A stretch of DNA of 64,000 nucleotides, from the IMG/VR virus record IMGVR_UViG_3300034071_002652, positions 24,440 to 88,439 of that record, one strand, 5' to 3'. Position 1 is the stretch's first letter; every line of letters starts with the position of its first letter. This DNA comes from a virus. The notes below the pieces were generated by a model, which was given only the letters and a program-made list of their open reading frames with translations, was not told the origin of the DNA and made no database searches. Position numbers and translations under genes: made by a program. Shown one piece after another: positions 32,547 to 64,000 of this stretch.

Positions 32547-33077
32547 TCAACATCTTTCATATCTACCTTGGAATATTTGTACTACAATAATCCAATTATT
32601 TTTTTTGTCAAAAATAATACTATGTCCGTAATTATATTCTGGTTTATTTTCAGAAAAGACGCAAGTTAGGTCATTCATTACAATTAGTGAGTGACCTTTC
32701 GACTTCATAAAATTATTATGGGCACGTAAGGCGGTTAATAGTTCACCTTCACTTGGACGATACGTAAAAACTGTAATATTTTCAAAAATAGAAGTAGAAA
32801 TATCCCCTCTTTTCAAACTCAAGTAACGTTGATCAGGTTCTTCCAACGATTTATTGGGATGTGAATGGGTAACATCACCAATATTACTAAGAGTGGCCAA
32901 GTAAGTTGATTGAATCTCAGCGGTTCTATCCAAGATATCTAAATGAATAACCTCATTCAAACCCGCCTTTGTCCTTTCTTCTTGGATAAGTCGAAGTAAT
33001 TCTTTTTCAATTAAACTAACATCTTGTGAAAACGCAGTGTGAACACAAGTAATCATCAACAGAAGTAACTTTTTCAT
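32547..33077 (-). CDS. Secreted CAP-domain protein, copy 1
   Basis: 176 aa with a cleavable signal peptide (MKKLLLLMITCVHTAFS) and a CAP/SCP domain: LLRLIQEERTKAGLNEV, THSHPNKS, IFENITVF, AHNNFMKSKGHSLIV and YNYGHSIIF. CAP proteins are extracellular; their roles include lipid binding and protease-like activity. It is about 80 percent identical by eye to copy 2 (33239-33763). Its start overlaps a remnant of a third-type CAP gene, showing tandem duplication of the block. Confidence 0.75.
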   Translation of the reverse strand: MKKLLLLMITCVHTAFSQDVSLIEKELLRLIQEERTKAGLNEVIHLDILDRTAEIQSTYLATLSNIGDVTHSHPNKSLEEPDQRYLSLKRGDISTSIFENITVFTYRPSEGELLTALRAHNNFMKSKGHSLIVMNDLTCVFSENKPEYNYGHSIIFDKKNNWIIVVQIFQGRYERC

Positions 33078-33238: not shown

Positions 33239-33763
33239 TTATTTAAAACTAATTTGAAATACTTGAACCACGATAATCCAGTTATTTTTTTTGTCGTATA
33301 CAATACTGTGTCCGTAATTATAAGGTAATCTATCTTTGGTAAAAATACAGGTTGGATCATCCATCACACGAAGAGCGTGACCTTTCGACTTCATAAAATT
33401 ATTATGAGCACGTAAGGCGGTTAATAGTTCACCTTCAGATGCTCGGTATGTGAAAACTGTGATATTTTCAAAAATAAGAGTATAATCATTATATTTTCTC
33501 AAACTCATGTACCGTTGTTCAGGTTCTTCCAACGATTTATTGGGATGTGAATGGGTTACATCACCAATATAACTAAGAGTTGACAGATAAGCGGATTGAA
33601 TATCTGCGGTTCTATCCAAAATATCTAAATGAATAACCTCATTTAAACCCGCCTTTGTCCTTTCTTCTTGGATAAGTCGAAGTAATTCTTTTTCAATTAA
33701 ACTAACATCTTGTGAAAACGCGGTGTTAACACAAGTAATCATTAACAAAAATAACTTTTTCAT
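33239..33763 (-). CDS. Secreted CAP-domain protein, copy 2
   Basis: 174 aa, close paralogue of copy 1 with the same signal peptide and motifs (HIDILDRTADIQSAYL, THSHPNKSLEEPEQRYMSL, NNFMKSKGHALRV, YNYGHSIVYDKKNNWIIVVQ). It starts within the stop of the upstream CAP gene (ATGA overlap). The C-terminal 4-5 residues differ from copy 1. The pair's divergence is spread over the gene, so the duplication is not very recent. Confidence 0.75.
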   Translation of the reverse strand: MKKLFLLMITCVNTAFSQDVSLIEKELLRLIQEERTKAGLNEVIHLDILDRTADIQSAYLSTLSYIGDVTHSHPNKSLEEPEQRYMSLRKYNDYTLIFENITVFTYRASEGELLTALRAHNNFMKSKGHALRVMDDPTCIFTKDRLPYNYGHSIVYDKKNNWIIVVQVFQISFK

Positions 33764-37591: not shown

Positions 37592-37614
37592 TTTTGAAAA
37601 TTAAGTTTATTTAG

Positions 37615-38004
37615 TGAAGGCGGGCGGACTCGAACCGCCGTCCCTAGTATCTCAAACAGAGAGTACTACACGTTTAGGTCATTATTAATTCACAATAATC
37701 CGAAATATCTGAATTCTCACACCGTTCAGCCACGGTGGTAATACTTTAAGATGTACTACAACCTTTGGTTATTAAGGTAACCAACCTTCAGTGGACTTCT
37801 GTTCATAGGTATATGTCCTGACCGACCCGTAGGTTTTCGGAGCCTTAGGCTGCGTAAACCTCTTCAGTTTGGATCAAACCAATAGACTGAAGTTTTGCGA
37901 AAGTTTCGCCAGTTGTTTTTGAAACCGTAGATTAAAGTGATAGATCTCATCTCACTACGTGCACTCTGTGCCTGACCATACCGGTCAAATCCAAAATCGC
38001 CCCC
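37615..38004 (-). ncRNA. ssrA: Transfer-messenger RNA
   Basis: 390 nt. The 5' end GGGGGCGATTTTGGATTTGA pairs with the 3' CGCCTTC plus A. The 3' T-arm GGCGG-TTCGAGT-CCGCC is perfect. The internal tag frame runs 37910-37848 on minus (stop 37845-37847), encoding 21 residues that start GETFAKL and end TEEVYAA, the hydrophobic Ala-Ala end needed for proteolysis. CCA is not encoded. It would rescue stalled ribosomes and tag the products. A promoter with boxA-like leader precedes it by 6 bases. Confidence 0.92.
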
Positions 38005-47050: not shown

Positions 47051-48820
47051 ATGGGTTTAACAAGAGAACAGGTATTATTAGAATATGCCAAATGTGTCAA
47101 AAGTCCTGAATATGCCTTAAAAACATATTTGAAAACTTATGATCAAACAGTTCAGGGGTTCGTACCCCTGAAGTTGTTTCCTGACCAAGTGAAATTGATT
47201 GAGGATTTCGAAAAATTTGAGGAAAATATTGCATTAAAATATAGACAGGCGGGAGTTTCCACTGTCACCGCAGCTTGGATTTCCAAAAAGTTGATCACGG
47301 CTCCGAAGGGAAAACCTGAAAAGATATTGATCATCGCAAACAAACTTGATACTGCCGTCGGTATGGCAGATAAGATCAGATCGTTCCAAGAGCAATGGCC
47401 CGATTGGTTTGGCGTTAGTTTTTCATCGGAAAAAAACTCCCAACGTCACTTCAGATTGACAAATGGTTGTGAAGTAAAAGCGGTTGCAACATCAAAAGAC
47501 GCATTGAGAGGTTATACCCCAACTATTCTTGTATTCGACGAGGCGGCATATATTGAAGCTGATGATGATTTCTGGGCGGCTTGTATGGCCTCACTCTCAA
47601 CGGGTGGTAAAGTTATAGTTATTTCAACCCCCAACGGATTTGATCAAATTTATTATTCAATTTACGATCAAGCTTTACGGGGTATGAATGATTTCAAAAT
47701 ATCTGAAATGTATTGGTATAGAGATCCAAGATATACCAAAGACCTTTATTTAGTAAAAACCAAAGATATAGTTCATTATTTGTTAAATAAAGAAGAATAT
47801 TCTGAAGAGGAACACGTAATTAGGTTGGATGGTGCGGGTTGGGATTTGGATCTTGAATTTGTTATTCAAAAAATCAATGAAGGTTATAAACCTTGTTCTT
47901 CTTGGTTTGAAACTATGGTTAAGAAGTTGAAATACGATAGAAGAAAGGTGTCTCAAGAATTGGAGTGTAACTTTCTTGGTTCGGGTGACAATGTCATTGA
48001 CTCTGGAACTATGGAAAAAATCAAGAAAAATGATATTAAAGAACCCAAAGACAAGATGATGGGAGGGGCGTTATGGGTTTGGGAGGATCCAATATTGGAT
48101 CACAAATATATTATGGGTGTGGATGTGTCAAGAGGTGATTCAGAGGACTTTACAACCTTTAATATAGTTGATTTTGATACAAGAGAACAGGTTGTTGAAT
48201 TTTTGGACAAAGTTCCACCTGATATTGCCGCTGAAATTGCCTTAAAATGGGCACAAAGATACAACGCATTTGTGGTTATTGACATTACGGGTGGTATGGG
48301 TGTATCAACTGCAAGGAAGATGCAAGAGTTGGGGTATAAAAACCTTTATATTGATGGTCAAGTATCAACTGATATATGGAAATATGATCCAAAAGCACAA
48401 GAGAAAATACCGGGAATTAATTTTAACAACAAAAGGGTTCAGATTATTGCAACTTTTGAAGAATATATTAGACACGGGTTTAAGATAAGATCATCAAGAT
48501 TATATAATGAATTACTGACGTTTGTTTACATAAACGGAAGACCCGACCATATCAAAGGACAACATGACGACTTGATTATGTCTGTTGCTATGGCTTTATA
48601 TGTTGGTGAAAGTAGTTTTTCCAAACTCACAAAGGTTACCGAACAAGCAAAAGCAATGATTGATTCTTGGACGGTAAATGAAAGTGTAAAATATAAAACT
48701 GACTTTATGAATCCGAGTGTTCCATCGTATTATGGTCAAACAAATAACGATTCCAATCGAAGTTACAATCAGAAAGACGTAGAGAAATATTTATGGCTCT
48801 TCGGAGGAATGAGAAGATAA
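47051..48820 (+). CDS. Terminase large subunit (gp17-like)
   Basis: 589 aa. The ATPase domain has KYRQAGVST (63-71, the R-Q-x-G-x-S-T form of Walker A), the Walker B strand LVFDEAAYI (160-168) and a coupling motif STPNG. The RNase H-like nuclease shows GVDVSRGDSEDF, VVIDITGG and GQHDDLIMSVAMAL with the three catalytic acids. It pumps DNA into the prohead and cuts it, bound to the portal encoded next. No small subunit is recognised. The start at 47051 is used; an ATG 4 bases earlier is out of frame. Confidence 0.95.
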   Translation: MGLTREQVLLEYAKCVKSPEYALKTYLKTYDQTVQGFVPLKLFPDQVKLIEDFEKFEENIALKYRQAGVSTVTAAWISKKLITAPKGKPEKILIIANKLDTAVGMADKIRSFQEQWPDWFGVSFSSEKNSQRHFRLTNGCEVKAVATSKDALRGYTPTILVFDEAAYIEADDDFWAACMASLSTGGKVIVISTPNGFDQIYYSIYDQALRGMNDFKISEMYWYRDPRYTKDLYLVKTKDIVHYLLNKEEYSEEEHVIRLDGAGWDLDLEFVIQKINEGYKPCSSWFETMVKKLKYDRRKVSQELECNFLGSGDNVIDSGTMEKIKKNDIKEPKDKMMGGALWVWEDPILDHKYIMGVDVSRGDSEDFTTFNIVDFDTREQVVEFLDKVPPDIAAEIALKWAQRYNAFVVIDITGGMGVSTARKMQELGYKNLYIDGQVSTDIWKYDPKAQEKIPGINFNNKRVQIIATFEEYIRHGFKIRSSRLYNELLTFVYINGRPDHIKGQHDDLIMSVAMALYVGESSFSKLTKVTEQAKAMIDSWTVNESVKYKTDFMNPSVPSYYGQTNNDSNRSYNQKDVEKYLWLFGGMRR

Positions 48821-48860: not shown

Positions 48861-50738
48861 ATGGCACAAACTAATCAACAATATACAATTTGGCAACGAC
48901 TTTCAAGGGTCTTTGGACCAGATTCCACATTGGATCAACAAGTTCCTCAATATAGGTTTGATAAAAAAGAAATTTTAAGAACCAAATCCAAAGGGGAATA
49001 CGAGAAGGAAAAACTTCAAGCTCAACAGAGTTTGTATTTGGCAAACCAATGGTCAAAGGTTGAAAACAATCTTTACACACAAGCCGTATATTATGAACCA
49101 ACAAGGTTGGCTTCATATTATGACTATGAATCTATGGAGTTTACACCCGAAATATCCGCAGCGTTGGACATTTATGCCGAGGAATCAACCACTCCGAACG
49201 AAAATGGATTTATTCTTCAAATATATTCAGAATCTAATAGAATCAAAAGTATTTTGGCCGACTTGTTCAATAACAAGTTGGACATCAACACCAACTTACC
49301 TATGTGGACAAGAAACACTTGTAAGTATGGTGATAATTTTCTCTACTTAAAGATTGATCCTGAACAAGGTGTTGTCGGAGCACAACAACTACCAAATATT
49401 GAAATCGAAAGATTTGAGAGGGGTATGGTTGTTAATACCGTTGCAATGAATACCGGTGTTGAAAACACTCACTTGACTTTCACATGGAAAAATAAAAATA
49501 TAGAATTCAATACGTGGGAGGTTGCTCACTTTAGACTTTTGGGTGACGACTCAAAATTACCTTATGGAACTTCTATGTTAGAAAAAGCAAGAAGGGTTTG
49601 GAAACAACTTCTTTTGTCTGAAGATGCGATGTTGATCTATAGAACATCAAGAGCACCTGAAAGAAGGGTTTTTAAAGTTTTTGTTGGAAATATGGATGAC
49701 AAAGATGTGGAAGCGTATGTACAGAGAGTTGCCAACAAATTCAAGAGAGACCAAATTGTGGATCCCAAGAATGGTAATGTTGATATGAGATATAATCAGA
49801 TGGCTGTAGACCAAGATTATTTTATTCCTGTTCGTGATCCAAACGCACCAAATCCAATTGATACTTTACCGGGTGCTCAAAATCTGAGTGAAATTGCGGA
49901 TATTGAATATATTCAAAAGAAATTGTTAACTGCTTTGAGAATACCAAAAGCATTCCTTGGTTTTGAAGAAGTGGTTGGTGATGGTAAGAATCTTTCTCTT
50001 TTGGATATTAGATTCTCAAGAACCATTAATAGAATTCAACAAGCGATGATTCAAGAATTGAATAAAATCGCGATTATTCATCTATATATCTTGGGATTTG
50101 AGGACGAACTTAATAACTTCACTTTGGGTCTAACAAACCCATCAACACAACAGGATATGTTGAAGATTGAACAACTTCAATCTAAAATTGCACTTTACAG
50201 AGACGCGGTTACTGATCCTGGAAATGGTATTCAAGCGGTATCTGCTTCTTGGGCTAAGAAACACATTCTTGGATTCAGTGATGAAGAAATTAAGTTGGAT
50301 ATTCAACAACAAAGAATTGAAAAAGCTGTAGCTAAGGAACTTGAGGAAACTCCGAATGTAATTACTAAAACAGGTATATTTGACAATATTGACAAGTTAT
50401 ACGGTAATGGAAAACCAAAGGAGGAAGGTGAAGCGGGTGCTGGTGAGGCAACAACACCCGGTGGTGGAGAAACAACAAGTCCTGATTTAAGTGGTTTTGG
50501 TGATTTAGGTGGCGGAACCACAACACCCGAACCCGCATCTGAAACAGGTGGTGCTGAAACAGGTGGTGCTGAAACAGAAACTCCCACCGCAGAAGTAACT
50601 CCCGAATCCAAGGAAAGAGATGAGAATTTAATCCTTGAAGATAGTATGTTAAACGGTGTTGTTGAACTAAACATTAACAAAGCTAAAAAATCTTTAGAGG
50701 AGATTGATCAAAAATTGAACGAGTTACTAAAATCATAA
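48861..50738 (+). CDS. Portal protein (T4 gp20-like)
   Basis: 625 aa. The N-terminal crown of the family is clear: YTRLASYYDYESMEFTPEISAALDIYAEEST-type text near residues 75-105, then WTRNTCKYGDNFLYLKID, PYGTSMLEKARRVWKQLLLSEDAMLIYR and SLLDIRFSRTINRIQQAMIQELNKIAI. The protein forms the dodecameric DNA channel at one head vertex. The last 100 residues are Gly/Thr/Pro/Glu-rich low-complexity linker and a short helix, an extension beyond typical gp20. Confidence 0.9.
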   Translation: MAQTNQQYTIWQRLSRVFGPDSTLDQQVPQYRFDKKEILRTKSKGEYEKEKLQAQQSLYLANQWSKVENNLYTQAVYYEPTRLASYYDYESMEFTPEISAALDIYAEESTTPNENGFILQIYSESNRIKSILADLFNNKLDINTNLPMWTRNTCKYGDNFLYLKIDPEQGVVGAQQLPNIEIERFERGMVVNTVAMNTGVENTHLTFTWKNKNIEFNTWEVAHFRLLGDDSKLPYGTSMLEKARRVWKQLLLSEDAMLIYRTSRAPERRVFKVFVGNMDDKDVEAYVQRVANKFKRDQIVDPKNGNVDMRYNQMAVDQDYFIPVRDPNAPNPIDTLPGAQNLSEIADIEYIQKKLLTALRIPKAFLGFEEVVGDGKNLSLLDIRFSRTINRIQQAMIQELNKIAIIHLYILGFEDELNNFTLGLTNPSTQQDMLKIEQLQSKIALYRDAVTDPGNGIQAVSASWAKKHILGFSDEEIKLDIQQQRIEKAVAKELEETPNVITKTGIFDNIDKLYGNGKPKEEGEAGAGEATTPGGGETTSPDLSGFGDLGGGTTTPEPASETGGAETGGAETETPTAEVTPESKERDENLILEDSMLNGVVELNINKAKKSLEEIDQKLNELLKS

Positions 50739-52182: not shown

Positions 52183-53028
52183 ATGATTGAAAAATTTATT
52201 GAGTTATCACAAGAAACCGATAAAAGTCTCGTAGAATTTATCGAGGCTTTTTTCGGTGGTAATATTGAAGTTTTTTATAAAAAAATTAAATCGAGTGGTG
52301 ATTCAATTCCTACCTCTATTTTACTTGATCTATATCACCAATATCCAGCATCAACATTAAAATATGTTACATCTGTCGGTGATCAGGAACTTAATGAACT
52401 TATATTCGAAGTGTTGGATGATCATAGTAGGGGTTTATCAAAGGATGGTGATGAATATTTCTATCGTATTGATAAGTTAAGAGATTTTGAGATATTCTTT
52501 GATCGTGAGACAAAAGAAGATAGATGGTTAACACAAGGGTTTTGGGACATAGATTGTTATGATTATTGGAATGATGTAATATCTTCTGAAAACAAAAAAA
52601 ATATTAAGAATTTTTCGGATTATGAAAAATCTATAATTTGTATATTCATAGAAACAGCAATTAAAATTTCAATAAAAGATAAAATAAATTCCAAAATATT
52701 TCAGACAATCAGTGATTATTTGGGATACCCCGATGGATCGGGTGTTCGTGAAGATGGAAATGGATATATTTTAAATGTCACCAAAATGATTTCTCAATTG
52801 GCTGAGGACACAAAAGAGTTAATCGAAAATGGTGAAGTTGACAATTCAACACAGCTTGCTTGGGACAACGGAATGTTTTATTTAATACGTTTTACTGTCT
52901 CTATTGAGGTTGAATTCGGTTCATTAGTTGACGAAAACTCGATAAGAAAAGTCTCAAAAGACATTAATAATTATATTACAACATATTTATCTAGTAAAAA
53001 AAATGAAAGAACAACTAAGAGTACTTGA
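52183..53028 (+). CDS. Protein of unknown function upstream of the prohead protease
   Basis: 281 aa, acidic, helical, with aromatic-rich middle (RWLTQGFWDIDCYDYWNDV). No motif is recognised. Its last 26 bases overlap the start of the protease gene, so the two are probably made together. A protease regulator or core protein is possible. Confidence 0.5.
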   Translation: MIEKFIELSQETDKSLVEFIEAFFGGNIEVFYKKIKSSGDSIPTSILLDLYHQYPASTLKYVTSVGDQELNELIFEVLDDHSRGLSKDGDEYFYRIDKLRDFEIFFDRETKEDRWLTQGFWDIDCYDYWNDVISSENKKNIKNFSDYEKSIICIFIETAIKISIKDKINSKIFQTISDYLGYPDGSGVREDGNGYILNVTKMISQLAEDTKELIENGEVDNSTQLAWDNGMFYLIRFTVSIEVEFGSLVDENSIRKVSKDINNYITTYLSSKKNERTTKST

Positions 53029-53731
53029 GGCTCACGAAACCGGTAAAGGTATTTTGGTAGAGCATGACGCGGGATATATCTCACCAAATCATCCTGAAAA
53101 CGAAAAGGTTATCATGGAATCCAAGTCAATGAGAGATCATTCCAGACCATTTATATTCTATGCTGTTCTTCAAAAGTTTGATACTCCAAATAGAAACGGA
53201 AGATTATATCCCGAAAAAATATTAAAAAGAGAAGCAGAAAATTATAAGAGAATGATTCAAAAGGGAACTTCCCTTTCAGAATTGAATCACCCCGAATCAT
53301 CTATTGTAGATTTGGAAAGAGTTTCACACATTATTGATGATGTATGGTGGGACGGAAATACCTTGATGGGTAAATTAAGACTTCTAACCTCACCAGCGTT
53401 TCACGAAACAGGTATTGTTTCTACACCTGGTGACATCGCAGCAAACCTTATGAGACAAGGATGTACGATGGGTATATCTTCAAGAGGGGTGGGGACTTTA
53501 AAAAAGAAGGGAGAACAAAATGAAGTACAAGACGACTTTGAGTTAATCTGTTTTGATTTAGTTAGTTCACCATCCACACCAGGAGCATATCTTTTTGACA
53601 AACCTGAAGATAAATTCAACTTTGAGGAAAACATAGAAGAAGAAAGAAATTTAAGAAAACCAGAATCTGAAAAAGGATTGGGTAAGTCTCTTGATTTAAT
53701 GAACAAACTTTCCGATTTTTTAGGAAGATAA
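53003..53731 (+). CDS. Prohead protease (T4 gp21-like)
   Basis: 242 aa. Matches the gp21-type serine protease family: FIFYAVLQKFDTPNRNGRLYPEKIL, SELNHPESSIVDLERVSHII (His96 candidate), and CTMGISSRGVGTL (Ser159/160 candidate), followed by FDLVSSPSTPGAYLF. The known T4 enzyme cuts core, scaffold and capsid proteins after (L/I)xE, removing N-terminal targeting peptides during maturation. The many LxE sites in this window are its likely substrates. Confidence 0.88.
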   Translation: MKEQLRVLEAHETGKGILVEHDAGYISPNHPENEKVIMESKSMRDHSRPFIFYAVLQKFDTPNRNGRLYPEKILKREAENYKRMIQKGTSLSELNHPESSIVDLERVSHIIDDVWWDGNTLMGKLRLLTSPAFHETGIVSTPGDIAANLMRQGCTMGISSRGVGTLKKKGEQNEVQDDFELICFDLVSSPSTPGAYLFDKPEDKFNFEENIEEERNLRKPESEKGLGKSLDLMNKLSDFLGR

Positions 53732-55336: not shown

Positions 55337-57190
55337 ATGGGAGCATTATTAGAAAGTGGTTTAGTTGGTAACATTGGTCTTAAGCACCTTAAAGTTATCA
55401 AAGAAGACACTATAAACAAATGGGACAAACTTGGTTTCTTGGAAGGATTGGGCGGACACCTAAAAGAAAACATGGCTCAACTTTATGAGAACCAAGCATC
55501 TCACTTAATTAACGAAGCGGCATCAACAGATTCTTCAGGTTCATTCGAAACTGTTGTATTCCCTATCATCAGAAGAGTTTTCTCAAAACTTTTGGCTAAT
55601 GATATCGTTTCTGTTCAGGCGATGAACTTACCAATCGGTAAACTTTTCTACTTCGTACCTAAGATTCAGGCTTATGAGGTTGGTGGAACTAATGCTGATG
55701 GAGGTGGTATTCACTACGGACCTATCGGTGCTGTTGACGGACCAACTCAAGCAGAATCAAGTGCTGGTTACAATAACAACCAAAAAAACCTTTACGATAG
55801 ATTCTACGAAGGTAATGAGGCAGCTTTAGATCCTCCTGGTCTTTTTGATTATTCAAAAGGAGCGTTCTCCGCGATCACTAAAAACGCAACAACTGTTGTT
55901 TGGTCTAACGGTACATTAATACCAGGGGCTTACACTTTGACAGGTGGACAAGTTGCTGCAACAGGTGCGGACGGAGGTCCTGTTTACAGAAAAGCTTTGA
56001 TTGTTATGTCAGGTTTCTCTTCAGCAGGTGCTGGTAAATTGATCGGACCTGATGGTCAAGAAATGGACAACGAATCTTTCCTTTCTGACTTGAGAGTCAA
56101 TGCAAAATCAACAGGTGCGTTCTCAGGTATGGGATCTGGTGATCTTCTTTTCAGAGTTGTTACTCAGAAGTATGGTAAGGGTATTGTTCAATACGGATCA
56201 CAACAATCAACAACCTTCTACAGTGGTTCTTACCCTGGAAACGGTGGTGCGTACGACAACCTCTGTGACGCTACAGGATTGATCTACTTGGAAGTTGATC
56301 TACAACAACCATGTGCTATCGGAGCGGCATCATTGGATGGTTACTCGGGTCTCACTTTGACCGTTGCAGGTACTGCAACCGCAGGATCTCAATTTGAATG
56401 TACTTTCAGAGTTTATCAGGAATTGGAATTTGAAGATAAGATTGGTGAAGTTTCATTTGATCTTGAATCAGTTACCGTTTCTGTAACCGAAAGAAAGTTG
56501 AGAGCACAATGGTCACCTGAACTCGCTCAAGACGTTGCCGCTTTCCACAACATTGACGCTGAGGCTGAATTGACAGCGTTGTTGTCAGAACAAGTCGCAG
56601 CTGAAATCGATAGAGAAATCTTGAGAGACTTGAGAAAAGGTGCAGCGTGGCAGTTGAGATGGGACTACAACGGTTGGAAGAGAGGTACAACCGCTAACCC
56701 ATTGACACAGTACACACAGAAGGATTGGAACCAAACATTGATCACTGCGATCAACCAACTTTCTGCACAAATCCACAAATCAACATTGAGAGGTGGTGCT
56801 AACTGGATCGTTGTTTCGTCCGAAGTTTCAGCTATTTTTGATGACTTGGAATACTTCCACGTTTCAAACGCAGCTCCTGAACAGGATCAATACAACATGG
56901 GTATTGAAAGAGTTGGTACATTGTCTGGTAGATACCAGGTTTACCGTGACCCATACTTCCCACCAAACCAAATCTTGATTGGTCACAAGGGAACGTCATT
57001 ACTTGACACAGGTTACGTTTACGCACCATACGTACCACTTCAGTTGACACCAACTATGTATAACCCATTCAACTTCACCCCAATCAAGGGTATCATGACT
57101 AGATACGCTAAGAAGATGGTGAACAACAGATTCTATGGTAGAATCACAGTTGATGGTGTTAGAACATTTGACCTTAGAGAATTGAGATAA
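55337..57190 (+). CDS. Major capsid protein (T4 gp23-like)
   Basis: 617 aa. The N-terminal propeptide is MGALLESG...; LYENQASHLINEAASTDSSGSFETVVFPIIRRVF matches the gp23 cleavage region. The likely cut is after Glu60 in LINE, as T4 gp23 is cut after its 65-residue propeptide. A long insertion (about 110-330) corresponds to the gp23 insertion domain. The C-terminal HK97 core (LTALLSEQVAAEIDREILRDLRKGA... YAPYVPLQLTPTMYNPFNFTP) is typical. Better-balanced codon use than neighbours fits very high expression. Confidence 0.93.
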   Translation: MGALLESGLVGNIGLKHLKVIKEDTINKWDKLGFLEGLGGHLKENMAQLYENQASHLINEAASTDSSGSFETVVFPIIRRVFSKLLANDIVSVQAMNLPIGKLFYFVPKIQAYEVGGTNADGGGIHYGPIGAVDGPTQAESSAGYNNNQKNLYDRFYEGNEAALDPPGLFDYSKGAFSAITKNATTVVWSNGTLIPGAYTLTGGQVAATGADGGPVYRKALIVMSGFSSAGAGKLIGPDGQEMDNESFLSDLRVNAKSTGAFSGMGSGDLLFRVVTQKYGKGIVQYGSQQSTTFYSGSYPGNGGAYDNLCDATGLIYLEVDLQQPCAIGAASLDGYSGLTLTVAGTATAGSQFECTFRVYQELEFEDKIGEVSFDLESVTVSVTERKLRAQWSPELAQDVAAFHNIDAEAELTALLSEQVAAEIDREILRDLRKGAAWQLRWDYNGWKRGTTANPLTQYTQKDWNQTLITAINQLSAQIHKSTLRGGANWIVVSSEVSAIFDDLEYFHVSNAAPEQDQYNMGIERVGTLSGRYQVYRDPYFPPNQILIGHKGTSLLDTGYVYAPYVPLQLTPTMYNPFNFTPIKGIMTRYAKKMVNNRFYGRITVDGVRTFDLRELR

Positions 57191-57502: not shown

Positions 57503-58405
57503 ATGTCTCAGTTAAAAGAAGATTTAGCGGTTTGGTTTGGTAAAAAGAAAAAATCTAAAGGATCAAAACAACCACAAGGTCCGTGGGTAAATATATGTAA
57601 AAAAAAGGAAGGTGGTGGTCATCCCCCCTGTGGAAGAGATGAGGGTGAAACAAAAGGTTATCCTGTATGTAGGGCTAGATCTGTGGCTTCCAAAATGAGT
57701 GAAGAAGAAAAGAAATCCGCTTGTGCAAGAAAAAGAGCAAAAGAAAAGAAAGATCCTCAATCAGGGAAGGGACAAAAACCAACAAGAATTCAAATAAAAG
57801 GATACAAAAAAGAATCAGTTATGGATAAAAAGCCAATTTTTGAGTGGAAAACTCTCAACGAAAATAAGATTGTTTTGAGTGAAGAAATGAAATATCATAT
57901 AGATAATAATATTTCAATTCACGAAAATGTTTTTAGGATGGGATCTGACAAATATTTCTCTTTATTTAGAGAGGCAAGAAGTTTAGGTTATGAAAACTTC
58001 ACCAATCAAGTGGACAGATGGTTAATCAAAAATACTGATATCGGATTGTTTGAACTTTATGAAGGGGAATTGGTTCCTTTGGATGTCCCGATGTTGTATG
58101 AAGCTGAATATCAGGGAAAAAAGGTTCAATTAAATAAACCTATGAGAGGTGGTAGTGGTGGAAAAAAGTTCAAGGTTTATGTAAAAGATCCAAAGACGGG
58201 TAATGTAAAAAAAGTTTCCTTTGGTGCAGCCGGAGGTGGTGGATCTTTGGCCGTTAAATTAAAAGATCCTGCGGCTAAGAGATCATTTGCTGCAAGACAC
58301 AAGTGTCATACAACCAAAGACAAAACAACTGCATCTTATTGGGCTTGTCGTTTACCAAGATATGCAAAGTCTTTAGGATTAAGTGGTGGTGGAACATGGT
58401 GGTAA
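57503..58405 (+). CDS. Phage protein with DUF5872-like N-terminus and conserved Cys/Trp C-terminus
   Basis: 300 aa. The N-terminal 75 residues are basic with GPWVNICKKKEGGGHPPCGR and KGYPVCRARSVASKMSEEEK, a Cys pattern like DUF5872. The C-terminal 80 residues (KLKDPAAKRSFAARHKCHTTKDKTTASYWACRLPRY) are a small Cys/Trp domain seen in many T4-like marine phages. The middle contains LNENK and a helical linker. It follows the capsid operon; a virion protein is likely. The cupin gene starts 10 bases before its stop. Confidence 0.6.
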   Translation: MSQLKEDLAVWFGKKKKSKGSKQPQGPWVNICKKKEGGGHPPCGRDEGETKGYPVCRARSVASKMSEEEKKSACARKRAKEKKDPQSGKGQKPTRIQIKGYKKESVMDKKPIFEWKTLNENKIVLSEEMKYHIDNNISIHENVFRMGSDKYFSLFREARSLGYENFTNQVDRWLIKNTDIGLFELYEGELVPLDVPMLYEAEYQGKKVQLNKPMRGGSGGKKFKVYVKDPKTGNVKKVSFGAAGGGGSLAVKLKDPAAKRSFAARHKCHTTKDKTTASYWACRLPRYAKSLGLSGGGTWW

Positions 58406-58665
58406 ATCCTTATCAGGAAGAAGTAAATGACAGTATAATCACTCGTGTTTTCAAAGAAAATGTTGAGAGTGATGAACTGGTATGGCATCGTGATAGAAAC
58501 GACCGTATCGTGGAGATATTGGAGTCTGACGGGTGGTATTTTCAATTTGAAGATCAACTACCAACAGAAATGAAAAAAGGGGATGTATTGAACATCCCCA
58601 AAGAAAGTTATCACCGAATTATCAAAGGTTCAAATGATTTGATTGTGAAGATTTACGAAATTTGA
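58396..58665 (+). CDS. Cupin-like small protein
   Basis: 89 aa from the ATG at 58396. VWHRDRNDRIVEILESDGWYFQFEDQLPTEMKKGDVLNIPKESYHRIIKGSNDLIVKIYEI gives the two cupin motifs: an HxD strand and a late PxxxxH strand. Single-domain cupins bind metals or small ligands; similar cupins are common in phage genomes near structural genes. The role is unknown. It overlaps the end of the previous gene and converges with the 58622 gene. Confidence 0.65.
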   Translation: MVVNPYQEEVNDSIITRVFKENVESDELVWHRDRNDRIVEILESDGWYFQFEDQLPTEMKKGDVLNIPKESYHRIIKGSNDLIVKIYEI

Positions 58666-58798
58666 TTTGGTAGTGTGATGAAGACATTAGATCTTCGTGA
58701 AATAAATTAAAATAATCTAATGCTGAATCCGCAGATTGAGCCTCTGTTTGGTTAATAACTTTTCCTTCCTTAATTAGTTCATAGGTCCGATAATTCAT
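58622..58798 (-). CDS. Small protein of unknown function
   Basis: 58 aa from the ATG at 58798 (MNYRTYELIKEGKVIN), polar and basic at the end. A TATTTATTGA motif (58816-58822) lies 17 bases before it. It overlaps the cupin gene tail by 44 bases. No family is recognised. Confidence 0.45.
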   Translation of the reverse strand: MNYRTYELIKEGKVINQTEAQSADSALDYFNLFHEDLMSSSHYQIKFRKSSQSNHLNL

Positions 58799-58845
58799 TG
58801 TTATGGGATTTGTCAATAAATACACAAAAATCTGTAATATTTACA

Positions 58846-61629
58846 TCAGTTGAAATTATATTTCAAACTAAAGTTGACATTTGACCCCATCCTTGTTTCT
58901 TGCCATCTGTTGTCCCCCTCATCCAATTTTTCATTACCGTTAAGATCTTGGAACATTACCAAATCTTGTGAGAGTAAATCTCTAACATTAAACTTCATTT
59001 CAACATTTCCGAATTTTTTGGAAACCTGAAGATCAATCAAATTTCTTCCATTTTCCCAAACCGATGGTTCTTGAATATTTCCGACGATGAAGATTCTCGG
59101 ACCAACCATATTGTAACTTGCGGAAATATTCCAATTATTTTGTGTGTTATATAACAAACCGAAGTTATAAACATAAGGTGATTGACCTTGTAGTGGTCTT
59201 CCATTTTCAGATCCTTCAAATCCATTCAAATCAACTTCAGATTGAACCAATGAAACATTGGATGTAAGATTTAGATTGTCAATCAGATTTATTTTACCTT
59301 CAAATTCAATACCTCTGATAAACGCACTTTGAACATTTGAATAATAAATCTCTGGTGCTCCTGAAACACCAGTTCTATTAATCAATTCAATTGGATTGGT
59401 CAGGTTTTTGTTGAATATTGAAATAGAAAAAATATCATTTAGATCGGGATAAAACTCAAACCTTACTTCTTGGTTATTTATTTTGGTTCTCTCCAAATAT
59501 GGATTTCCTGTTATAATATTATCTTGAATAAAGTTGTAGAAGGTGAAGGGTGCAAGTTCTCTAAATTCAGGTCTTGAAACACTTGAATATAGGGACGACC
59601 TGAGTTGGGTCTTGTCATTTATTGTATAAACAAAATTAAATGAAGGTAAGAAGTCAGTTATATTACTATTGATATGAATTGGTTTATTTGAACCAAATTC
59701 TGTGTAGAAAAAGTTTTGATTGTAATTTTCAACTCTTAACCCATATATAAATCTGAATGATCTATATTTTGTATCAAATGATGTATATCCCACCCCTAAT
59801 GTGGAGTTTGCGTTATAACTATCATCCACGTTGGTTGATTCATCTAATTTGAATCCACCCATCCCATTATCCAATAGTCCCATATTTTCTTGTGAAAAAA
59901 TCTGACTTGGATCCAATAGAAGTAATGAACTATCAAAATAACCGTTTTGTGGTTTGTATTGTGAATAACCTAAGTTACGGGAGATAAAATTTCTATCTCT
60001 GTGTTGATATATCCCTCCTATCTTCACTTCATTTTCAAATGAACCGAGTGTTATATTTCTTGACCAATCTAATTTTCCTGAATATAGATCTTCATCTGAA
60101 TAAGACCAAAACATATTTCCCGCAGCGGTGGGAATAGTTCCATTTGATTGTATAACTGCGGTATATTGTGTATTTGAATCATCTTCATTCAAAGAATATT
60201 TTCGATAAACTATTCTTCTTAAGTTTGGAATATCTCTTTTAACATTGTTGTAACTCAAATTCCAATTCAACTTTGAATTTATGATGTTGTGAGTTCCAAT
60301 TAACTGTTGTGATAAAAAGTTATTTTGTGTGTACCAAAAATTTGTGGATTTTTCCCATTGTCTTGGGTCATTATCCATTTCCCTTACACCTTGTCTTACA
60401 TTGACTCTATCTTCAGAATTTATGGTGTAAAAGTTCTTTAATTTTATGGTATTGTTAGGATTTAATAACAAAGAAAAATTAAGAAGACCACTGTTTGCAA
60501 TATTGTGAACAAAAACTGAATCATTAAGTTCCATCTTTTGAACAACTTCCAAACTTTGTTCTTCAAAATCTCTTCTTGTTGTAGTGGTAGTATTGAACTG
60601 ACTTGAATAATTATAAGCTCCACTTAAAAGAAGGGTTCTACTTCCAAATGAATAATTTTTTCCTACTGAATATTGAAAAGTAGAAGATACAGGTGCTTTT
60701 CTTGAATATGTTGACCAATCGGTTTGAATCAACGATGCAAGTTCGGACCTTTCTTGTTTGGATAAATTTACAAACTCAGAAGTGTTTGGAATATTGTCGG
60801 GTAAACATCTAAATTCCGATCCCAACCCAATTGGATCCATCGGACTCCCTCTGTAAGTTCCAAAGTCTTGGAAGGTGGTCATCGTATTGAATGATGTTCC
60901 GATCTGAAAATTCTGATATGTCACTTCCTTCGGATCTGTTGTATTGATGTTAATTAAACCACCTGAGAATTCACCAGAGAGATCAGGTGAAGACGATTTA
61001 TTAACATACAAGTTGTCAATCATATTGGAAGGAAACAAATCAAATGAAAATGCTCTTCTATCTGATTCGGTTGAAGGAAGAGGAGTTCCGTTGATATAAG
61101 CGAAGTTATATCTATCGTTTAAACCTCTGATAATCACAAATTTATTTTCTTGTATCGTTACACCCCCCACTCTTTTGAATACATCGGATGCTTTAGCGTC
61201 GGGTGTTTTACTGAAAACCTCCGAAGAAACACCATCAATAACTGATGCTGATCTTTTTTGTAAAGCAATCATCTGTGTTGTTGATTGTTGATTCGCTTGA
61301 GCAACAACTGTAGCCTCACCTATTTCCAAAAAGACGGGGTTGAGAGATACATCAACAACCCCACTTTTTCCAACCATATTTATACTTTGAACCGAAGTGT
61401 CATAACCGATAAAACTGAATCTAACATTATAAACCCCTGAAGGAATATTTTGAATTGAGAAGTTTCCATCAAGGTCACTCATCGTTCCTTTACCTAATTC
61501 CTCAATATATACCGTTGCACCAATCAACGACTCCCGTGATTGAGAGTCGTTGACCGTGCCAGATAAATTATATTGTGAAAATAAACAAAAAGGTAAGAAT
61601 AAAAATATAAATAAGTTGAAGTATTTCAT
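58846..61629 (-). CDS. TonB-dependent outer-membrane receptor with carboxypeptidase-like N-terminal domain
   Basis: 927 aa. Signal peptide about 1-18 (FLFLPFCLFSQ). A CarboxypepD_reg-like domain (about 20-105) reads LSGTVNDSQSRESLIGATVYIEELGKGTMSDLDGNFSIQNIPSG. A plug domain (about 115-230) has SDVFKRVGGVTIQENKFVIIRGLNDRYN and FPSNMIDNLYVNKSSSPDLSGEFSGGLININT. The 22-strand-type barrel runs to the C-terminal aromatic (KYNFN). Such receptors import large nutrients with TonB. It follows the T9SS cargo by 1 base. It is flanked by phage genes, an unusual cargo for a lytic-type phage. Confidence 0.9.
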   Translation of the reverse strand: MKYFNLFIFLFLPFCLFSQYNLSGTVNDSQSRESLIGATVYIEELGKGTMSDLDGNFSIQNIPSGVYNVRFSFIGYDTSVQSINMVGKSGVVDVSLNPVFLEIGEATVVAQANQQSTTQMIALQKRSASVIDGVSSEVFSKTPDAKASDVFKRVGGVTIQENKFVIIRGLNDRYNFAYINGTPLPSTESDRRAFSFDLFPSNMIDNLYVNKSSSPDLSGEFSGGLININTTDPKEVTYQNFQIGTSFNTMTTFQDFGTYRGSPMDPIGLGSEFRCLPDNIPNTSEFVNLSKQERSELASLIQTDWSTYSRKAPVSSTFQYSVGKNYSFGSRTLLLSGAYNYSSQFNTTTTTRRDFEEQSLEVVQKMELNDSVFVHNIANSGLLNFSLLLNPNNTIKLKNFYTINSEDRVNVRQGVREMDNDPRQWEKSTNFWYTQNNFLSQQLIGTHNIINSKLNWNLSYNNVKRDIPNLRRIVYRKYSLNEDDSNTQYTAVIQSNGTIPTAAGNMFWSYSDEDLYSGKLDWSRNITLGSFENEVKIGGIYQHRDRNFISRNLGYSQYKPQNGYFDSSLLLLDPSQIFSQENMGLLDNGMGGFKLDESTNVDDSYNANSTLGVGYTSFDTKYRSFRFIYGLRVENYNQNFFYTEFGSNKPIHINSNITDFLPSFNFVYTINDKTQLRSSLYSSVSRPEFRELAPFTFYNFIQDNIITGNPYLERTKINNQEVRFEFYPDLNDIFSISIFNKNLTNPIELINRTGVSGAPEIYYSNVQSAFIRGIEFEGKINLIDNLNLTSNVSLVQSEVDLNGFEGSENGRPLQGQSPYVYNFGLLYNTQNNWNISASYNMVGPRIFIVGNIQEPSVWENGRNLIDLQVSKKFGNVEMKFNVRDLLSQDLVMFQDLNGNEKLDEGDNRWQETRMGSNVNFSLKYNFN

Positions 61630-61630
61630 T

Positions 61631-63223
61631 TTACTTTTGTATTACAAACTTCTGAACATCGTTGGATGTTTGAATGAAATAAATTCCATCTTCAAAGTTT
61701 GAAAGATTGATTGTGGTTGGTGCATAATCCTCATAAACTCTTTGACCCACCTGATTCATCACGAAGATAGGAGTTCTATTTGGTGAAACAACATTCAAAA
61801 AGTCAGATGTTGGGTTGGGGTAAATTGTGAAGTTGGATGTGGGTTCATCTTCAACACCGATCACAACAGGGTTAGATAAAAGTGGATGTGTGAAATCCGC
61901 TCCCAAAGCTGGTGAATTGCTTTCGCTAAGTCTAGCATCAGGAGTCAAACCCAAATCAACAAACAAATTAACCCAATCAATTTGTTCAATTGTTGTTGTT
62001 GAGTCGTTGTTGTTTACACCAAAGAATGAATTGTAAAAATCTTCCGTTCCTGAAACACAATTTGAACCAACAGGAAGATCTGCCAAAATATTGTTAGCAA
62101 AAACCAAATCTCCGTTTGTTACATTGACTTGGGTTGAAGTGCCCTCAATAGAAACACCTTTTTCCCAACCTGTAACCAAAGAGTTGAATACAGAAGTTGA
62201 AGTGTTTCTTCTTAATCTAAAAGCCTTCTCAAAAGTTTCTCCGTTTGGAAGGTCATCGGTGATATCATCACCAAACGGCCCAACCAAAGTTACATTAGAA
62301 AAAACAGGTGAGGTTAGGGGTTCATTAGCAGATCCTTGACCATCGTTGTCTGATTCAAATGCGTTGGAGTCACCGACTGCATCATACATATATTTGTTTC
62401 TGATGGACAAAACAAATTGAACTTTTCCTCTGTAACCAAAGTCGGTATCAAAATCATCATCAATACCACTATAAGCGATGAGGTGTTTGCAATTTACAGT
62501 TCCACCGAACCATTCAAATGAATCATCACCTGAATAAGATACTTGAAGATTATTCACATAAGTTCCTGAACCTACAGAACCAAAGGTAATTCCGTTGATT
62601 TCTTTGTTTGGTTCAAGAGCGATACCACAAAATTCTACTCTAACATATTCTAATATACCTGAGTTGTCATTATCATCAGTTCCACCGTATTCAGTATCCA
62701 AAGAGGCTGGAATACCTTCAATATTTGCAATACCGCCAGGTTGATTGTTGATCGCATTACCCAAAATAACTAATCCTCCCCAATCACCCTCAGCTCTCTC
62801 ACCCACAGGTTGATTGGATGTAAAAACGATGGGTTGGTCTTGTGTCCCTTGTGCAATAATTTTTGAACCTTTTGTTACAATCAAAGTTGCTTGTGTGGAT
62901 GCGTCTCCTCTGATAATTGTTCCTGGTTGAATTGTCAAAACCGCACCATTCTTGACATATACTTTGTTTTGGAGTTCAACAACACCTCCGATGGTTGTAT
63001 TTACCGTAATATCTGAAGAAAGGATCATAGACGGGGTTGGGTATTCTGTGTTTTGTGGATCCCAATTTGTCCATCCATAAGTCCAATCAGTTGCTGTTGT
63101 GTTGTCAGTTACAGGGAAGGCACCTCTGTAGTTTACATAATCCCAAGTCCATTCTTGAGCATTAGTTGTCAAAAGACCCATAAATAGTGACAGGGTCAGC
63201 AAAATTTGTTTTCTCATAATCAT
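61631..63223 (-). CDS. Secreted protein with T9SS type A sorting domain
   Basis: 530 aa. Signal peptide MRKQILLTLSLFMGLLTTNA. The body is beta-helix/beta-rich repeats of Asn/Gly turns (EYPTPSMILSSDITVNTTIGGVVELQNKVYVKNGAVL). The C-terminal 75 residues start with SNFTIYPNPTSDFLNVV and end DGIYFIQTSNDVQKFVIQK, the T9SS type A sorting signature. The protein would be exported across the Bacteroidota outer membrane. It stands directly upstream of the TonB receptor; such secreted-protein plus receptor pairs are common in Flavobacteriia. The likely start is the second or third Met. Confidence 0.85.
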   Translation of the reverse strand: MIMRKQILLTLSLFMGLLTTNAQEWTWDYVNYRGAFPVTDNTTATDWTYGWTNWDPQNTEYPTPSMILSSDITVNTTIGGVVELQNKVYVKNGAVLTIQPGTIIRGDASTQATLIVTKGSKIIAQGTQDQPIVFTSNQPVGERAEGDWGGLVILGNAINNQPGGIANIEGIPASLDTEYGGTDDNDNSGILEYVRVEFCGIALEPNKEINGITFGSVGSGTYVNNLQVSYSGDDSFEWFGGTVNCKHLIAYSGIDDDFDTDFGYRGKVQFVLSIRNKYMYDAVGDSNAFESDNDGQGSANEPLTSPVFSNVTLVGPFGDDITDDLPNGETFEKAFRLRRNTSTSVFNSLVTGWEKGVSIEGTSTQVNVTNGDLVFANNILADLPVGSNCVSGTEDFYNSFFGVNNNDSTTTIEQIDWVNLFVDLGLTPDARLSESNSPALGADFTHPLLSNPVVIGVEDEPTSNFTIYPNPTSDFLNVVSPNRTPIFVMNQVGQRVYEDYAPTTINLSNFEDGIYFIQTSNDVQKFVIQK

Positions 63224-63316
63224 CTTTTTTTAAATTTATTGTAAATTATACGTCTATAATTACAATAGGTCAAAAGAAGGTTGTTAAGAGAAAGTTAAGT
63301 AAATAATAATAAGGGG

Positions 63317-63571
63317 TTATTTTTTACCTTTACAGTAGGATCCTGAACATCTTTTCTTACCATCAAGACCTGGCATCCTTCCTTTACACACTTGAACCGC
63401 ATATCCATTAGCATATGCACTTGGATATACATCATATTTTGCTTTAGCTGCTGATATACCACGAGAACATAACTTATTTGATTTTTTCTTCTTCTCGGTA
63501 ATGTAAGCTTCAATAAGGAATCTTCTCAAGATTTCTTTCATATCTTCATTATTTAAAATAATTTTACTCAT
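63317..63571 (-). CDS. Small phage protein with conserved YPSAYANGYA domain and LxE start
   Basis: 84 aa. The helix MKEILRRFLIEAYITEKKKK has an LIE site and a basic tail. Then KYDVYPSAYANGYAVQVCKGRMPGLDG matches a short Cys-containing domain that is frequent in proteins of large marine phages. The last 20 residues are Lys/Cys-rich. It confirms phage sequence on the far side of the receptor genes. It overlaps the upstream gene stop by 4 bases. Confidence 0.65.
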   Translation of the reverse strand: MSKIILNNEDMKEILRRFLIEAYITEKKKKSNKLCSRGISAAKAKYDVYPSAYANGYAVQVCKGRMPGLDGKKRCSGSYCKGKK

Positions 63572-64000
63572 TTTTTATTTACGACTTGGAAATTTATTTC
63601 GTTTTTGTATGTGACAACATTGTTATTTTGATTTAGTTGTAAATCAATAAAATATTCATTTGGAATCTTGTCTTTTAGATCTAATATGAAGAAGTATTCT
63701 TGTGGGGTTCTATTAAGTTCAGTCCAATCTGTAACTTGAACCTCTGTTTGACCCTCCTTTACATATATTCTATATTGAACATCAATATCTTCCACAATAT
63801 GTGACTTTGTATATGCTTTTTTAGGTATAACCGATATTTTTCTTTGATCGGTGTTCAATATTTTCTCAGCGTATTGAATTCCATAGAATGTAAATCCGTA
63901 CTCTTGAGTGTCGGGTAATGAGGTGTCATATTGTAAACTATCACTATATGATTTGAGTTCAAATTCATTATCAATATTGGATAAAGCAACACTATTTAAC
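63568..64000 (-). CDS. Phage protein of unknown function, 5' part cut by window edge
   Basis: The frame is open to the window edge, so only the last 143 codons are seen. The visible part is beta-rich: YGFTFYGIQYAEKIL, KAYTKSHIVEDIDVQYRIYVKEG, NVVTYKNEINFQVVNKK. An internal TTG start at 63858 is possible but the frame continues without stop. Coupling by a 4-base overlap with the next gene suggests one phage operon. No family is recognised. Confidence 0.55.
   Translation of the reverse strand, partial: LNSVALSNIDNEFELKSYSDSLQYDTSLPDTQEYGFTFYGIQYAEKILNTDQRKISVIPKKAYTKSHIVEDIDVQYRIYVKEGQTEVQVTDWTELNRTPQEYFFILDLKDKIPNEYFIDLQLNQNNNVVTYKNEINFQVVNKK

Follow-up and report, generated by a model that had tools for sequence, protein, structure and literature searches.

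The gene pair and its host relatives

The window analysed here is a 64,000-nucleotide stretch of viral DNA, positions 24440-88439 of the 88,439-base IMG/VR virus record IMGVR_UViG_3300034071_002652, whose right end is also that of the window. On its minus strand lie two adjacent, intact open reading frames (ORFs), the first for a 530-amino-acid (aa) protein sorted by the type IX secretion system (T9SS), to which we give the name BP, and the second for a TonB-dependent receptor. From our point of view, the pair is probably a viral copy of the TBDT-FII pair (TBDT, TonB-dependent transporter) of the Bacteroidota Pho regulon and would serve phosphorus acquisition at the outer membrane under the control of the host PhoB. 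The sequence-only reading of this DNA had noticed a receptor and a T9SS cargo protein inside a phage genome, and did not recognise their genes as a pair already known from the PhoBR locus of hosts. The pair and the sequence in front of it comprise:

58846..61629, minus strand: TonB-dependent receptor, 927 aa, second gene of the pair; signal peptide, CarbopepD_reg_2, Plug and beta-barrel
61631..63223, minus strand: BP, 530 aa, first gene of the pair; predicted secreted right-handed beta-helix with a C-terminal T9SS type A sorting domain, FII family
63239..63265, minus strand: A+T-rich imperfect inverted repeat, conserved as seen in an alignment, between the Pho-box-like repeat and the BP start codon
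63283..63298, minus strand: Pho-box-like direct repeat TTAAC-N6-TTAAC, period 11; the pattern is found nowhere else in the window, the other strand matching one base over

A single base pair separates the BP stop codon from the receptor start codon. The receptor matches the Pfam models PF07715 (Plug, 6.9e-9), PF13715 (4e-19) and PF14905 (4.4e-27), and its only solved relative by sequence is the N-terminal domain of a SusC homolog (9hfj). The tail of BP matches PF18962 (Por_Secre_tail, 2.7e-9) and scores above the cut-off of TIGR04183; with this type A sorting domain and a signal peptide (judged by eye from the sequence, as for the receptor), BP is by its predicted features T9SS cargo. Solved relatives of BP by sequence are confined to the tail (7pzj at 0.0021, 8glj at 0.41), and the modelled tail resembles that of a solved T9SS substrate, 8glk_D (Foldseek E 8e-3; TM 0.75 by target). 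The model of BP, made from a 55-row alignment and with a mean pLDDT of 89, is mostly beta; a Foldseek search with it against solved structures returned nothing at E 1e-3 or better, and a VIA comparison of its middle part gave right-handed beta-helices (Z 17.5-21.9 among the 50 entries listed), which include tailspikes, epimerases and polysaccharide lyases. This predicted fold agrees with the "polygalacturonase" note in a paper on Flavobacterium johnsoniae (PMC8115612), and it is common to so many functions that it gives none for BP. A largely invariant acidic region around GDDSFEWFGG, DDDFDTDFGY and FESDND would be the natural candidate for a binding site.

In the PhoBR operon of F. johnsoniae, Fjoh_0545 (TBDT) and Fjoh_0546 (FII, IPR011050) rise under depletion of inorganic phosphate (Pi), with 8.02 and 9.91, respectively, in the FC column, and the induction of these TBDT genes is reported for Pi depletion only, not for nitrogen or iron limitation (PMC8115612). 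The Pfam set given there for Fjoh_0545 (pf07715, pf13715, pf14905) is found in full in the window receptor, and the proteins FI-FIII are described as 31-36% identical to a low-phosphate Caulobacter lipoprotein at 50-54% coverage, FII being assigned to one family with it (PMC8115612). The Flavobacterium metagenome-assembled genome L118 has the gene order PF04101 glycosyltransferase, histidine kinase, the genome's best PhoB match, receptor (here split into three ORFs) and BP, which is that of Fjoh_0541-0546 without the OprP gene, and a BP core match is present in 38 of 41 Flavobacterium genomes. Judged by its domains and, through relatives, by the synteny in L118, the window pair matches the TBDT-FII pair.

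The wider host set consists of the best 80 of at least 550 BP relatives from one genome scan. A homologous receptor lies no more than two ORFs from BP in 71 of the 80 loci, upstream on the same strand in 65 of these, and in six of the nine loci without a nearby receptor the upstream DNA is shorter than 1 kb. PhoB-like regulators, defined by an identity of 45% or more over 180 aa to that of L097, occur within 6 kb of BP in 30/80 loci and in 21/43 where the flanks are complete. In 17 of 30 genomes, one of the two best matches to the PhoB model TIGR02154 lies within 6 kb of BP (0.24 expected by chance), in ten of them directly behind it; these 30 genomes were chosen after some neighbours had been seen and are not a fair sample. 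Among the 50 host loci outside that sample, 13 have a PhoB-like neighbour. At four of the loci, the best models are PhoB-type and PnpS/PhoR for the five regulators and three kinases that were scanned.

The Pho-box-like repeat sits in the 93-bp gap before BP. The pattern TTAA[CG]-N6-TTAA[CG] was first seen by eye in upstream sequences and then counted: it precedes 8 of 23 non-redundant phage BP copies as opposed to 6 of 371 other phage ORFs from the same loci (Fisher 9e-8), and 20 of 59 host receptors as opposed to 10 of 556 other host ORFs (Fisher 2e-15). Other periods (7-24) reach at most 2/23 in phages and 3/59 in hosts, except for period 22 (10/59 hosts). In six aligned phage copies the core of the repeat is invariant save for one spacer base, and the upstream flank varies. 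Pho boxes have an 11-bp period. As a motif in the sequence, a Pho box is present upstream of the pair, and the inverted repeat at 63239-63265 is perhaps a promoter or operator. The TTAA core also occurs in the cyanobacterial Pho box given in PMC10976474. Among the background matches, those before PhoB (L115, L161) and before a PF07396 porin (L163) were not accepted as independent evidence, since these genes and the receptor diverge from one common promoter region; others precede three receptors of this family (L105, L109, L126), and an independent one precedes a GDPD-type gene in L097, five ORFs away.

Phage surroundings and spread among viruses

The genes around the pair are those of a T4-like phage, with the head genes at 47-57 kb:

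47051..48820, plus strand: terminase large subunit
48861..50738, plus strand: T4-like portal protein Gp20 (PF07230, 5.1e-81)
53003..53731, plus strand: head maturation protease
55337..57190, plus strand: major capsid protein Gp23 (PF07068, 1.8e-72)
57503..58405, plus strand: g116, flanking phage ORF, phrog_7595, function not known
58622..58825, minus strand: g118, small flanking ORF downstream of the receptor, retained in related records
63317..63571, minus strand: g121, flanking phage ORF, phrog_27331, function not known
63568..63999, minus strand: g122, flanking phage ORF truncated by the record end; the full ORF in the related record L034 has 499 aa, of which g122 is the C-terminal part

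In a PHROGs scan of the flanks, g116 and g121 match families of no known function, the match of g122 is marginal, and none was obtained for g117, the receptor or BP. A search limited to the phage neighbours g113-g118, g121 and g122 revealed no regulator-like ORF among them. In the near-identical record L012/L034, phage sequence runs on beyond the point where the window ends; none of the five ORFs scanned there has a PHROG match, and a phoH gene in the orientation of BP is located some 9.5 kb from it.

Both junctions, in the order g121-BP-receptor-g118, are repeated in seven further IMG/VR records (L002, L003, L004, L005, L006, L009, L012) from seven different metagenomes, with a receptor identity of 80-100%, and only the left junction is present in five more (L007, L008, L010, L011, L027), which gives 12 records with the left one. 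The join of host and phage DNA during assembly that the sequence-only reading had feared can thus be practically excluded, as the junctions recur across independent assemblies, and its perception of a real receptor and a T9SS cargo protein within a phage genome stands, given the intact ORFs, the matching Pfam domains and these seven records.

It had also proposed to look for the pair in other phage genomes, where it indeed recurs. A scan of IMG/VR with the receptor gave 26 other loci, and one with BP gave 64 viral contigs; as each scan used one query protein, both numbers are lower bounds, and counts are per contig, several records being present under two locus ids. On 22 of the 64 BP contigs the receptor stands beside BP, always after it and on the same strand, and other phage backgrounds hold the pair at 54-59% receptor identity (L013-L026, L058-L060, L066). 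The surroundings of the pair in L058 are 90-96% identical in DNA to those in L036, and the two differ in the receptor and in the 3' end of BP; the receptor is therefore an optional part. L036:8500-13800 and L058:6800-14700 form a natural presence/absence pair for the receptor in one phage neighbourhood.

In a set of 30 of the 64 contigs, picked mostly by length and including many fragments, Gp23 is present in 13, PhoH in 14 and a receptor plug domain in 10, and these ten receptors, the only ones found, adjoin BP. PhoH is widespread in phages, and its presence is weak evidence. In a search of a phage collection, three records were found to hold both genes; the 634-kb phage LR745206 has a BP homolog with the receptor directly behind it. 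Two short records marked unverified and with host gene order, MT838075 and MT837092, are probably bacterial DNA and were left out of the counts. The literature, mostly without subscription papers, yielded one report of a phage TonB-dependent receptor (PMC9723777) and none of the pair or of a link to phosphate.

Among the phage copies, dN/dS is 0.06-0.13 for BP and 0.05-0.20 for the receptor (seven pairs each), so that purifying selection maintains both in phages. In a BP tree of 112 rows, the phage label needs five changes, at least four of which are forced by starred branches. BP has thus probably entered phages several times, and the direction would have been from host to phage. The window BP belongs to a clade with 19 phage rows, which clusters with 15 host rows. 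These host rows mostly bear Flavobacteriales names, and many are of the receptor-BP-PhoB-PhoR type. Ten phage receptors form one clade in a tree from which the LR745206 receptor was left out. The trees were made by a quick method (BP) and by fasttree (receptor) and cannot separate gain from loss, and one false-looking join of long host branches was flagged in the receptor tree. Two records with non-Bacteroidota names, L112 (Glaciecola amylolytica) and L128 (Candidatus Planktophila), have BPs within Bacteroidota clades, that of L112 adjoining Fluviicola, and are perhaps misnamed or mixed.

Elsewhere in the phage, the window carries a tmRNA gene at 37614-38004 and 16 tRNA genes within 1373-29056. 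The neighbouring ORFs 32547-33077 and 33239-33763 encode proteins that are 82% identical and have signal-peptide-like starts, the first of them matching nothing in Pfam. Farther left in the record, outside the window, L029:296-2434 and L028:16883-18982 encode exported-looking phage proteins, one with a CHU_C type IX signal domain and one an M43-type peptidase.

A probable function and its alternatives

The pair would most likely work as follows. When a phosphate-starved host is infected, the host PhoB would bind the repeat at 63283-63298 and the two-gene operon would be switched on. Exported via Sec and the type IX system of the host, BP would reach the cell surface and there bind, or help to process, a phosphorus compound that the receptor would carry through the outer membrane, energised by TonB. 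The phosphorus supply to phage DNA synthesis would in this way be maintained while host genes are shut down, to the potential benefit of the phage. Of the roles that the sequence-only reading had listed, feeding of the infected cell is the best supported, with Pho-regulon homologs and the Pho-box-like promoter pointing to phosphorus as the nutrient.

Several observations weigh against such a function. With regard to the host loci, 50 of the 80 have no PhoB-like neighbour in the 6-kb range, in some cases for want of flank; the PhoB and PhoR models were matched below their curated cut-offs; and the link between BP and FII runs through relatives, Fjoh_0546 being known from its description alone. 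With regard to the repeat, the motif test was made post hoc and on related rows, all eight strict phage matches fall in one BP clade (where 8/10 promoters have the motif), and the motif is missing from 15/23 phage promoters, including those of L068, L074, L078, L079, L081, L082 and L089. The 64 kb contain two strand-wise matches where 1.19 are expected, and 33 of 100 shuffles reach two; the count in the window is hence not above chance, and the placement alone is telling. The motif search also covered the initial 20 kb of the record, which end with L028 at 4.4 kb before the window and contain no match (0.45 expected). Pho-box prediction in phages has moreover been called unreliable (PMC10976474). 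Finally, no receptor is seen on 42 of the 64 BP contigs, three of which stop inside BP, and among the 30 BP records, many of them fragments, none has a PstS-type (PF12849) or alkaline phosphatase (PF00245) domain, neither of which is matched by the receptor or BP of the window. Our estimate remains unchanged, because the count of PhoB-like neighbours over all loci and the period-11 enrichment stand.

It is conceivable, but improbable, that the phage-made receptor and the surface beta-helix protein block or mislead other phages, in the sense of superinfection exclusion or receptor masking. TonB-dependent receptors often serve as phage receptors, and both proteins are expected at the outer surface. 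Exclusion would, however, predict neither a Pho-box-like promoter nor homologs beside PhoB-like regulators, and neither the many phages with BP and no receptor nor the strong conservation of the receptor. Unlikely to a similar degree is a remodelling of the surface, in which BP would cut a surface glycan and phosphorus would be incidental. The modelled beta-helix resembles those of tailspikes, epimerases and polysaccharide lyases, although many functions use this fold. The Caulobacter lipoprotein related to FI-FIII is presumably ElpS. Glycan binding or hydrolysis has been suggested for FI-FIII, but FII is strongly induced with the Pho response in the host (PMC8115612), and ElpS is tied to phosphatase activity in Caulobacter (PMC2996285). 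Receptor replacement and surface reshaping, both raised by the sequence-only reading, thus find no support, and replacement does not predict the Pho-regulon homologs, the promoter or the many BP-only phages.

Even less probable is carbohydrate uptake by a SusC-type importer, as proposed for the Mar_Mega_1 and LR745206 receptor by the authors of PMC9723777. The window receptor does match the SusC/RagA model TIGR04056, but weakly, with 54 bits where the cut-off is 368 and a best stretch limited to residues 22-151, and its partner BP has no SusD domain in a Pfam scan; the receptor was hence rejected as the SusC of a SusCD importer. The host homologs adjoin PhoB-like regulators, and the LR745206 receptor stands directly behind a BP homolog. 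An assembly join, for which the host-type genes and the position of the window at a record end could be adduced, is practically excluded by both junctions in seven further records from different metagenomes and the left one in 12, by the order BP then receptor in 22/22 phage contigs with both compared with receptor then BP in 65/80 host loci, and by phage copies in clades of their own.

Relation to known systems and significance

The viral copy of a Pho-regulon pair that we favour resembles the F. johnsoniae TBDT-FII pair (Fjoh_0545/0546, PUSIV, PhoBR operon) in the Pfam set of the receptor, in the adjacency of the genes and in a partner with a pectin-lyase-type fold; host relatives of the phage pair, too, adjoin PhoB-like regulators and share the Pho-box-like repeat. 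It differs in gene order, the receptor following BP at a distance of 1 bp, in having no PhoB/PhoR alongside, and in the T9SS tail of BP, whereas Fjoh_0546 is called a lipoprotein (PMC8115612). A comparable arrangement, likened by description, is that of Caulobacter crescentus ElpS and Cc0171, where ElpS is a phosphate-starvation-induced surface protein whose gene adjoins that of a TonB-dependent receptor. Unlike the phage proteins, this pair is cellular, ElpS is a lipoprotein whose release is aided by a type II system, and Cc0171 is reported to be constitutive (PMC2996285). SusCD systems of Bacteroidota also combine a receptor with a surface partner, from which the present pair is set apart by the receptor falling short of the SusC model and by a partner without SusD.

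Among viruses, the best-known phosphorus-uptake genes are those of cyanophages. Cyanophage pstS and phoA are likewise host-derived phosphorus-acquisition genes, with the cited pstS cases under host PhoBR (PMC10976474), but PstS is a periplasmic binding protein, whereas the Bacteroidota phages carry an outer-membrane importer and a surface protein and 0/30 of the BP records have a PstS or alkaline phosphatase domain; the strategy would be the same with other proteins. A TonB-dependent receptor is also shared with the megaphages Mar_Mega_1 and LR745206, of which the latter was used for the comparison. Since the LR745206 "SusC" receptor stands right behind a BP homolog, its reading as a carbohydrate importer (PMC9723777) needs to be revisited, the present evidence pointing to phosphorus.

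Some phages have further genes near BP. A calcineurin-like metallophosphoesterase is encoded at L058:12566-13998, L036:11710-13142, L089:9149-9883, L087:3896-4573 and L085:232-1658, at 58 bp to 3.4 kb from BP (about 9 kb in L085) and in some cases together with a glycosyltransferase. It is homologous (36-42% identity) to an enzyme beside the host BP in 3 of the 80 loci (L097, L167, L110), while the glycosyltransferases differ in family (PF00535 in phages, PF13528 in hosts). Its best NCBIfam matches are weak and to LpxH-type models, and it is possibly a candidate for PlcP-type lipid remodelling. One could speculate, with more doubt than confidence, that Bacteroidota phages carry a modular, PhoB-switched outer-membrane phosphorus kit, with BP as its core, the receptor as an option and sometimes, for the release of phosphate from host phospholipids, a glycosyltransferase and a PlcP-like metallophosphoesterase, and that it was acquired at least four times. 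Such a kit would be the first viral system that carries phosphorus across the outer membrane, and the megaphage "SusC" receptor would have to be re-read.

Overall, if the pair is indeed the viral copy of TBDT-FII that we consider likely, host-controlled viral phosphorus acquisition would extend to large Bacteroidota phages and would shift from the periplasm to the outer membrane. It would further provide the FII/ElpS family with a testable functional frame, and for the megaphage receptor, hitherto read as a sugar importer, the prediction is clear.

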